A stretch of 51,278 bases of DNA from Candidatus Peribacteria bacterium. GTDB taxonomy: Bacteria > Patescibacteriota > Gracilibacteria > UBA1369 > UBA12463. Shown piece after piece: positions 12,051 through 51,278 of this stretch; the first letter of the stretch is position 1, and each line of letters starts with the position of its first letter. The position numbers and the translations under genes are program-made. The notes beneath the pieces are model-generated. The model ran no database searches and had not been told where the DNA came from. It saw only the letters and a program-made list of their open reading frames with translations. The stretch covers positions 1 to 51,278 of the forward strand of contig CALQZC010000003.1 of the NCBI GenBank assembly GCA_943349045.1, given 5' to 3'.

Positions 12051-12146
12051 GTGAGGAGTATAGCAGTTTCTGGCTTGAGGGGACAAGAGGGCTGTATGTG
12101 AGACTTTTGAGAGTATTTTTCGGGAAAATTACTCGCTATTTTGCAC

Positions 12147-12300
12147 AGGAATTTCTACCACAATTATTCCCGATTCGCAACTGAGAAAACTGTTATTTTT
12201 GGCTTGTTTCAGGTAGTATTCAGATACATTCTGGTCGCGGCAATCAGGTCTCAGTATCGAAGAAAGGCCCGCAAATAACACTCCTCTTATTTGCTAACCT
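12147..12300 (+). ncRNA. Candidate structured leader RNA, copy A, upstream of the HNH gene
   Basis: Strongly similar to 50907-51078. Shared blocks include CCACAATTATYCCCGATYCGCAACT, ATTTTTGGCTT, GCGGCAATCAG, CAGTATC, GAAAGGCCCGCAAA and TTTGCTAACCT. Terminal stem GCAAATAA (12271-12278)/TTATTTGC (12287-12294), flanked by AAAGG/CCTTT. Confidence 0.7.
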
Positions 12301-12307
12301 TTTTTTT

Positions 12308-13183
12308 ATGATTGATCTCTCCGCGCTTTCCAACACCGAACTTCTCACCTTATGTAAGGAATATGGTCAGGCGACGCTCAGTTGGCGTCGTAAGTTTCTT
12401 GGACTTCTTCCGGAAGTACACAAAAGAAAATTGTATGAACAGGCTGGGTGCAGCTCAGTCATTGAGTTCGCACAAAAACTCGCAGGGATAAGCGAAGAAC
12501 GGGTTCGCCTCACCCTGAATCTCGAGAGACGTTTCGAAAATAAACCGGCCCTCCATGAAGCGCTCGTAAATGGTGAAGTGAGTATCAATAAACTCGCGAG
12601 AGTTGTCTCGATCGCGACGAAGGAAAATGCAGAAGAATTGGCGGAAAAGGTAAAAATCTTACCGCGAGAAGCACTAGAAACATGGGTACGAGATATAAAA
12701 ACAGAAGAATCAGCCCCTTGCAAGAACCAGGAATTATTTTCCGAAGGTCTGCACGTGCATAGCGACGCATCTCTTGGAGAGACTATAACAACGTTCCAGC
12801 TCACCCCGAAAGTCCAAAAAAAACTCCAAGAGCTCCACCAGAAAGGCATCGACATCAATGAGATCATTCTCAGTGCGATTGAAAATCGAGAACAGGAAAT
12901 CGAACAAGAAAAAGAAACCATCAGTAACGAGTGTCAGCCAACCACCTCCAGATATATCCCAGCAAAAACTCGGAAGATTCTCAAAAAAGAATATGGGAAC
13001 AAATGCTCCATCAAAACCTGCACCAAGCCATCAGAAGAGCTCCATCACTCACAACGTTTCTCCGTAGCAAAAACCCACGACCCAAAGTACCTCGCTCCGC
13101 TGTGTAAACCCCATCACACGCTGGCGCATCTGAAAGATCTAAAATATTACGCTGCAAAAAATGAACGGAAAAAAGGCTCATAG
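12308..13183 (+). CDS. DUF222-like HNH endonuclease family protein
   Basis: DUF222-like VNGEVSINKLARVVSIATKENAEELAEKVKILPREALETWVRD and C-terminal HNH region CSIKTCTKPSEELHHSQRFSVAKTHDPKYLAPLCKPHHTLAHL. Confidence 0.85.
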   Translation: MIDLSALSNTELLTLCKEYGQATLSWRRKFLGLLPEVHKRKLYEQAGCSSVIEFAQKLAGISEERVRLTLNLERRFENKPALHEALVNGEVSINKLARVVSIATKENAEELAEKVKILPREALETWVRDIKTEESAPCKNQELFSEGLHVHSDASLGETITTFQLTPKVQKKLQELHQKGIDINEIILSAIENREQEIEQEKETISNECQPTTSRYIPAKTRKILKKEYGNKCSIKTCTKPSEELHHSQRFSVAKTHDPKYLAPLCKPHHTLAHLKDLKYYAAKNERKKGS

Positions 13184-13620
13184 CGCAAAACTATGGAGCG
13201 CAATCGTTCAATATCTACCCCTTCGCCCTGAATTTCAGCTCGAAAACGTAAACTCAATGCAATGAGATCTGGCCCTAAAGAAGTACCACCACGTGGAGCA
13301 AGTGTTCGCAAATACTCAAGCATATCGTCCAAATCAGCACCCACGAGCTGTGGAAAACGGAATCCGACAACCATAGACAGATAAGCATTATATGGAGTAA
13401 ATGCTTTTGCAGCAGTCATAAGATTTCCTTTTGACGCGAGACGTGACGACTCATCTCCATAACGAACCATCTCATCATAGGAGTAAAAACTAGTTAAAAA
13501 AACCAGAAAATTATTCCAATAATCACGAATAATTCCATTCCGACCAACTTGAATAGCCACACGAATCTCTGGAGTCAAAAGCTCTCTAGGATCAAATTTT
13601 TGAGGGGGATCAGGGTTCAT
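13147..13620 (-). CDS. Hypothetical protein
   Basis: 157-aa ORF, convergent with and overlapping the HNH gene by 37 nt; no recognised family. Confidence 0.55.
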   Translation of the reverse strand: MNPDPPQKFDPRELLTPEIRVAIQVGRNGIIRDYWNNFLVFLTSFYSYDEMVRYGDESSRLASKGNLMTAAKAFTPYNAYLSMVVGFRFPQLVGADLDDMLEYLRTLAPRGGTSLGPDLIALSLRFRAEIQGEGVDIERLRSIVLRYEPFFRSFFAA

Positions 13621-13717
13621 AAAAAATACAAAAAGGTGGTTATAATAAGGTAATTCAGCTAGCAGATCAATGAATATTCATCTATAATCGGCCTCGAATA
13701 AGCCTTATAAAGCAACC

Positions 13718-38976: not shown

Positions 38977-39747
38977 TTAAACCACATCTTTCAAAAGTTC
39001 ACGCAAGGCATCCTCCCACGTGACCATTCGCCTGAGCCGCTTTTCAAGTTCGCGCCGAAACAACCGGAATCGCGCAGCAAGCGCGCTATTCACAGGAAAT
39101 GAAAGGGTCTCACGCTGAGTGGAGAGTTGCTCAAGTTTTGAGGGTGCACTTGGTTGACTCATTATATTTTCATCTTCTAGACGAGTAATTTCGCCGGCGA
39201 AATTGTCAGCTTTATTTTCATCATTTTTTTGGAGTAAAGATGATTGAGAAATATTTTTAACAGGCTCGCAACTCACCTCAATCACCCCACTCAGTAAATT
39301 TTTCTGCTCTTCTCTATTCTGCCTACGCAAATCACGAACGTACACAATGAGTGCCGATCTCGACAGATCCCTCAGTAACCCCAGCCACTGTTCCTCATTA
39401 TTCGAGGTGACCAACGACAAAACGGCACGAATCTTTGACCAGCCAATCTCGCCCGAGTACAGGGCACGACGCATCAAGCGTAAATCGACGAGCTGTGCAT
39501 CAAGCCGTAAAACCTCTTCCACAAGAGGATATCCAATCCCACCAACCACCGAAGCAAAGTGGAAAATCGAAGAAAATTTCTTCACATCATACGCGCCTCG
39601 ACGCTCCACGAGAGGCAAGAGCCCAATAAACATCCGCCGAGATGTCACCGCAACACTCGCGAGCTGCCGACACCGCTCGAGGAGTTCGCGATCGCTCAGG
39701 TGTTCTGGATCTGTAGTAAGGAAACCAAGTTCGTTCATGGCGTACAT
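38977..39747 (-). CDS. DUF222-like protein without an HNH motif (paralogue of 12308-13183)
   Basis: SDRELLERCRQLASVAVTSRRMFIGLLPLVERR and YSGEIGWSKIRAVLSLVTSNNEEQWLGLLRDLSRSALIVYVRDL match the N-terminal/DUF222-like pattern; no CxxC/HH region. Confidence 0.65.
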   Translation of the reverse strand: MYAMNELGFLTTDPEHLSDRELLERCRQLASVAVTSRRMFIGLLPLVERRGAYDVKKFSSIFHFASVVGGIGYPLVEEVLRLDAQLVDLRLMRRALYSGEIGWSKIRAVLSLVTSNNEEQWLGLLRDLSRSALIVYVRDLRRQNREEQKNLLSGVIEVSCEPVKNISQSSLLQKNDENKADNFAGEITRLEDENIMSQPSAPSKLEQLSTQRETLSFPVNSALAARFRLFRRELEKRLRRMVTWEDALRELLKDVV

Positions 39748-50906: not shown

Positions 50907-51078
50907 CAGGAATTCTCCACCACAATTATCCCCGATCCGCAACTCAGAAAGTTGTCATTTTTGGCTTACTTAAGGTAAGATTCAAGCACATTTCAGATAG
51001 CGGCAATCAGCACAGTATCTCACCGGAAAGGCCCGCAAAACGCATACCAGACATCTGGTATCCCTATTTTGCTAACCT
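50907..51078 (+). ncRNA. Candidate structured leader RNA, copy B, upstream of the second HNH-family gene
   Basis: Similar to 12147-12300. Outer stem GCAAAA (51035-51040)/TTTTGC (51067-51072) with inner hairpin ATACCAG (51044-51050)/CTGGTAT (51055-51061) replacing copy A's simple loop. Confidence 0.7.
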
Positions 51079-51087
51079 CTCCTCCTT

Positions 51088-51278
51088 ATGATTGATACTG
51101 CGAACCTTTCTGACCTCGAACTCCTTACCCTCTGTCAGCAGTACGGCGAGGCCACGCTTATGTGGCGTCGCAAGTTTCTTGGACTTCTTCCAGAAGTGCA
51201 CAAAAGAAAACTGTATGAACAAAAAGGATTCACCTCCGTGTTTCATTTTGCAAAAGTTATGGCAGGCGTGAGTGAAGA
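51088..51278 (+). CDS. Partial DUF222-like/HNH-family protein (runs off the right edge)
   Basis: MIDTANLSDLELLTLCQQYGEATLMWRRKFLGLLPEVHKRKLYEQKGFTSVFHFAKVMAGVSEE is nearly identical to the N-terminus of 12308-13183. Confidence 0.8.
   Translation, partial: MIDTANLSDLELLTLCQQYGEATLMWRRKFLGLLPEVHKRKLYEQKGFTSVFHFAKVMAGVSE

Follow-up and report, generated by a model that had tools for sequence, protein, structure and literature searches.

A structured 5' leader with exchangeable stems upstream of a dispersed HNH-nuclease gene family in a Candidatus Peribacteria genome

Described systems and the setting of the HNH gene copies

A structured RNA located 5' of an HNH-containing protein is familiar from the HEARO, or omega, RNAs that precede IsrB and IscB in dispersed elements, and the leader reported here, which is linked to an HNH gene, structured, conserved and subject to copy-to-copy stem replacement, resembles them in being dispersed and in that position. 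It differs in having no Rfam match even at relaxed thresholds, and its protein, at 291 aa, combines a ParB/Noc-like helical domain with an HNH part, with no RuvC match by domain and fold searches. RNA structures also hide the start region of the phage homing-endonuclease genes I-TevI (T4) and mobE (Aeh1), and one is implicated for T4 segB (PMC3014915). Like those hairpins, which are predicted to cut initiation (PMC3014915), the leader places structure at the start region of a mobile endonuclease gene; here, in contrast, the setting is a bacterial chromosome with no Shine-Dalgarno (SD) site to hide, repression is a prediction, and a purine-pyrimidine stem is combined with a conserved core and replaceable peripheral stems. 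The HNH protein is unrelated to the phage homing endonucleases by the searches we made. As for attenuators of the intrinsic-terminator kind, a stem plus T run before the ATG is shared by a second type of leader (type-2, below) and by copies C1 and C24, whereas in copy A the GC stem plus T run is weak and in copy B it is absent, with no T run directly before the ATG. We found no paper combining Peregrinibacteria with HNH endonuclease, and none joining structured noncoding RNA, HNH endonuclease and candidate phyla.

The window, by which we mean the whole 51,278-nt stretch analysed, is contig C3, one of the 54 contigs of a 1.01-Mb genome, and holds two copies of the HNH gene on its forward strand. 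Copy A has a complete ORF (12308-13183) encoding 291 aa, with an N-terminal ParB/Noc-like domain and a C-terminal HNH, while copy B lies at the right edge, its ORF starting at 51088 and running off the contig (51088-51278, with an exact 119-base end common to contig C1). A distant third member of the protein family (38977-39747, minus strand) has no leader of the A/B type. Across the genome we counted 17 matches to the protein, and 42 of the 59 genomes searched had matches, this one counted; the named loci related to these copies belong to Peregrinibacteria and Peribacteria MAGs, and no virus-borne relative was seen in IMG/VR at the sensitivity used. Copy A lies between ftsK and a gene that we take by eye from its sequence to be gltX; in three congeners (G002, G003 and G004) these two genes are neighbours with no HNH gene between them. 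The insertion (12087-13717) comprises copy A and a 157-aa minus-strand ORF (13147-13620) with no Pfam match. Within the time span of the genus, copies are thus either mobile or lost, A having an empty site in three congeners. Modules also recombine between copies, since C16 is a mosaic whose leader core is 97% identical to that of A and whose ORF is 100% identical to that of B over its last 149 nt. The repeat at window 51130-51278 joins contigs C3, C16 and C1, and more than one copy could continue into C1.

Pfam and NCBIfam scans of the proteins taken singly gave nothing convincing, no Pfam family matched more than one of 41 homologs at E 0.01, and a PDB sequence search with the protein found no convincing relative. 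PHROG 22514 (phrog_22514, HNH endonuclease) was matched by 36 of the 41, and invariant residues C233, C238, H246, H247, C266 and H269 fit an HNH/zinc centre. The AlphaFold2 model was confident (mean pLDDT 91.6), and its closest solved folds were Noc and ParB DNA-binding domains (6y93, probability 1.00, TM normalised by target 0.63, although E was only 0.06), with weaker matches to HNH structures, IscB among them only weakly and to the HNH part. On this evidence the protein is probably a ParB/Noc-like site-binding domain joined to an HNH nuclease. It may be a homing endonuclease, given the HNH assignment by PHROG and fold and the empty site for A, homing itself being hypothetical.

Members and folding of the leader

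The original prediction took the DNA upstream of A and B to be two copies of one leader. They are indeed homologous, with 73% identity over leader plus ORF start and the core kept, and the further copies it suggested aligning exist: we aligned 14 leaders in all, eight from this genome and six from two congeners, every one directly upstream of an HNH-nuclease ORF and all with the invariant elements GCGGCA and GCCCGC at their core. From the 14 we built a covariance model (R1), with the variable P2 loops cut out, which recovered in 59 genomes exactly these leaders plus weak matches (best E 0.002), and in a 194-genome sample of the class only the eight of this genome, with none in the 193 others. 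We rejected the match in genome G039 (E 0.002) as chance, the stretch having an unrelated open frame, and likewise rejected a free mobile repeat, as there were no solitary copies. In Rfam release 15, the window gave only a tRNA at the gathering cut-off, relaxed thresholds near A and B gave only chance-level matches to animal snoRNA, lncRNA and miRNA models, and the other leader types had no match up to E 1. The result is an RNA motif without an Rfam match joined to an HNH family without a consistent Pfam match, in many copies among relatives in Peregrinibacteria and Peribacteria.

In copy B, similarity to A and C16 begins with conserved DNA (TTCTCCACCACAATTATCC..., 50910-50951), followed by a promoter, TTGTCA-18-TAAGAT (50952-50981), whose spacer contains the conserved TTTTTGGCTT; the spacer is conserved in copies A, B, C16, C2, C1, C24, C47 and C11. 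The corresponding promoter of A, CTGTTA-18-TAGTAT (12190-12219), was placed by alignment to B, a consensus scan having missed it. A CTTAC-TTAAG-GTAAG hairpin that had been proposed for B (at 50965-50979, one base off the earlier figure) falls in the promoter spacer and -10 and is absent from other copies; judging from where the promoter motifs lie it is probably outside the transcript, and we rejected it as an RNA stem. The putative leader RNA of B occupies about 100 nt (50988-51087, from an inferred transcription start; R1 match 50988-51085, 44.7 bits) and that of A 12224-12307 (R1 match 12224-12306, 57.1 bits).

Two helices, P1 and P2, characterize the leader. In P1 a purine tract pairs with the pyrimidine tract that precedes the start codon, and in all 14 copies the helix stops 0-6 nt short of the ATG. 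It encloses P2, which varies from copy to copy in sequence, length and inserted hairpin while its strands stay complementary. In B, P1 is GGAAAGG (51025-51031) with CCTCTCC (51076-51082), and P2 is GCAAAA (51035-51040) with TTTTGC (51067-51072), around an inserted hairpin ATACCAG-ACAT-CTGGTAT (51044-51061), all as previously described for P2 and its insertion. In A, P1 is 12259-12267 with 12298-12306, and P2 (12271-12278 with 12287-12294) is the 8-bp terminal stem with 8-nt loop (12271-12294) already noted there. Upstream of these, the GCGG of the invariant GCGGCA (51000-51003 in B, 12237-12240 in A) could form an early helix, P0, with the CCGC of GCCCGC (51033-51036 in B); both elements are invariant in the 14 leaders. 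B's minimum free energy fold also contains CAGTATC (51013-51019) paired to GATACTG within the ORF (51094-51100), a complementarity that some copies lack.

Joint folding of A and B, the test on which the original prediction was to stand or fall, found no shared structure above control by MAFFT and RNAalifold (z -0.8), and with four, eight and fourteen leaders the same procedure missed P1/P2, except partly in the set of four. This failure reflects stem-length differences, which misalign the variable stems, and not absent structure; we therefore replaced joint alignment folding with anchored single-sequence tests, in which the control was a shuffled segment between GCCCGC and the ATG. Folded alone, copy B reached -25.7 kcal/mol compared with -15.3 +/- 2.8 for dinucleotide shuffles (z -3.7). 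Its P1+P2 pairing was reached by 2 of 100 variable-part shuffles (that of A by none of 100), with 5.9 expected pairs each in P1 and P2 against 1.65 and 1.34 for shuffles. P1 and P2 were far above shuffles in 11 of the 14 leaders folded singly; in C1, C47 and C11 P2 forms and P1 does not. A stronger hairpin lies at the same place in C1, C24, C47 and C11, and resembles a terminator in C1 and C24.

All 14 leaders can accommodate P1, with two-sided changes from G-C to A-U in C1 and from A-U to G-C in B and the congener leader L064; between groups of copies a G/A shift in register on one strand is matched on the other. More than half of the copies have G.U pairs in P1, as would be expected of RNA. 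P1 strands paired better with their cognate than with swapped partners (P 0.003; 0.005 with nine representatives), and on the model-fitted alignment 4 of 12 modelled pairs had two-sided changes, a number equalled by 3 of 500 shuffles. Sliding the P1 partner columns by one (+1) scored equally well, so covariation, moderate for P1, does not fix the register in these homopolymer tracts. The idea that pairing outlives the stem change is supported by single folding, cognate pairing and two-sided pairs, with the P1 register left ambiguous. Compensatory change between A and B, also proposed, affects a single pair in each helix: A-U becomes G-C in P1, and U-A becomes A-U in P2. P1 of B also has one A.C mismatch. 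Overall, a structured 5' leader of the HNH gene family is well supported.

Function of the leader

Its position and the analogy with phage homing-endonuclease genes make repression of the nuclease the likeliest function, and we consider it reasonably probable that the leader is a cis-acting 5'-UTR that limits nuclease expression from this dispersed, multi-copy HNH gene. The promoter just upstream would give an RNA starting near ACATT and carrying the GCGGCA and GCCCGC core, and this RNA would fold into a long hairpin of two tiers, in which P1 surrounds P2 and a peripheral hairpin differs from copy to copy. The hairpin would end 0-6 nt before the AUG, P1 hiding the pyrimidine tract and the bases beside the start codon, and in an SD-less organism the hidden start region would keep initiation on the nuclease mRNA low. 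Consistent with this, the helix next to the ATG is predicted by folding in 11 of the 14 copies where it can be drawn. Counting against this explanation, AUG sequestration is incomplete in the predicted ensemble, where the AUG is unpaired about half the time in B (0.46) and mostly so in the congener leader L091, and GCGGCA is invariant yet unpaired in the final fold, a role for it being explained only if P0 or a protein uses it. Because single-genome paralogs have exchanged stems, the regulatory claim is directly testable.

What the leader would hide from the ribosome is a question raised by a lineage that hardly uses SD sites. B's CTCTCCTCC before the ATG had been read as an anti-SD-like tract standing in for an SD; the pyrimidine tract is there, as the 3' strand of P1, and an SD is missing, but the substitution itself is unsupported. 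Only 1 of 47 window genes checked had an SD-like motif (46 had none), and we rejected the missing SD as a peculiarity of the leader, its absence being the rule in this genome. A canonical 16S rRNA ends in GGATCACCTCCTTT, whereas the 16S fragment in this assembly (G000:C50:569-1185, L141), on a contig that presumably belongs to the genome, ends in GGAATACCTCTTTT, with CCUCU replacing CCUCC; given this end and the rarity of SD motifs, an SD is not expected here. An upstream ORF ending on the start codon, seen by eye in A, was not kept in B and was dropped.

The invariant core could instead belong to a two-state sensor resembling an attenuator or riboswitch, in which an early GCGG:CCGC pairing blocks P1 and the outcome depends on a ligand, on the speed of transcription or on a protein, possibly the HNH protein. 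GCGGCA and GCCCGC are invariant at a conserved spacing of 25-28 nt, and in 11 of 14 leaders P0 is the main pairing of the nascent 5' part (P 0.59-0.98), while in the full leader P1/P2 is favoured by 6-15 kcal/mol, which fits a kinetic switch of the core between GCGG:CCGC and P1/P2; some type-1 copies and all inspected type-2 leaders also end in a stem plus T run. P0 is not predicted, however, for B, C2 and C47 (P 0.03, 0.14 and 0.02), B and most P2 types have no T run, and the invariance of both P0 strands makes covariation uninformative on the switch. We regard a sensor as unlikely, if worth keeping in mind.

We give lower credence again, as an improbable reading, to the inverted repeats acting as DNA (an element end, an operator or a recombination site) with the RNA fold incidental. 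Copies are mobile or lost on the genus time scale, as the absence of A between ftsK and gltX in three congeners illustrates, and the sharing of leaders by A and C16 and of ORFs by B and C16 implies recombination between copies; but P1 retains G.U pairs, the pairing is confined to the interval between promoter and ATG, and we found neither a conserved 3' end after the HNH stop codon nor a repeat matching the leader at the ORF 3' end. A trans-acting or ribonucleoprotein partner of the nuclease, comparable to the RNA upstream of IscB/IsrB, would account for a small structured RNA always 5' of the HNH ORF with its own promoter, for peripheral stems that vary between copies and for type-2 leaders that resemble terminated small RNAs, but is very improbable given a similarity that begins upstream of the promoter with no guide-like variable 5' part, a protein with its own ParB/Noc-like DNA-binding fold and only a weak IscB match to its HNH part, and sister copies without this leader. 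Its strongest form, in which the leader is a functional RNA partner of an unnamed ParB/Noc-HNH nuclease family and exchangeable stems set specificity or regulation per copy, is scarcely to be expected; if true, it would be a second, independent kind of HNH-plus-RNA system.

Other leaders and LexA-type boxes on sister copies

Cis-acting control of the nuclease, the reading we prefer, is favoured by sister copies, in which tight control of the HNH gene appears to recur in unrelated ways, through other leaders and through LexA boxes. Congeners G001-G003 have a different leader, type-2, with GGAATAAGTCCT...AGGATTATTTC inside CGG/CCG and then a T run, found upstream of HNH ORFs at L065, L066, L067, L070, L071, L072, L076, L077, L081, L085 and L089. 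These leaders are terminator-shaped (GGAATAAGTCCTACAC ... AGGATTATTTC inside CGG/CCG), with variable inner hairpins, and are closed directly before the T run; RNAalifold recovered their inner helices and no two-sided changes. Two more types, seen by eye, lie ahead of HNH ORFs that follow folK or another shared gene, making at least four leader types by sequence within one genus, with folding examined for two. In several genomes (G000:C2, G004:C151, L060 and L062) an HNH gene, with one leader type or another, follows folK, a gene named by eye from its C-terminus, which suggests that this site is preferred by HNH genes.

Several paralogs and homologs carry TGAG-N6-CTCA instead of a leader. Its extended form, GGTGAG-N6-CTCACC, has 11 exact sites in this genome (L131-L140; G000:C1:14027, C1:52310, C2:25833, C15:8483, C16:14639, C23:11252, C31:8764, C41:5504, C42:4986, C45:1807 and C48:5661), and, in front of lexA (L136), recA (L137) and rmuC (L135), is flanked by TTGACG on one side and TATACT or TACAAT on the other, from which we judge it very probably the LexA/SOS box of this lineage. 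Box and leader occurred together in one of 63 copies (Fisher P 0.0014), a value confounded by phylogeny; because leaders are confined to one genus in the sample, this exclusion is not independent evidence. The several leader types and the LexA boxes point to repeated selection to keep the nuclease down. GGTGAG-N6-CTCACC was also seen near three HNH paralogs and near genes of the Bro-N type, named for the BRO family N-terminal domain.
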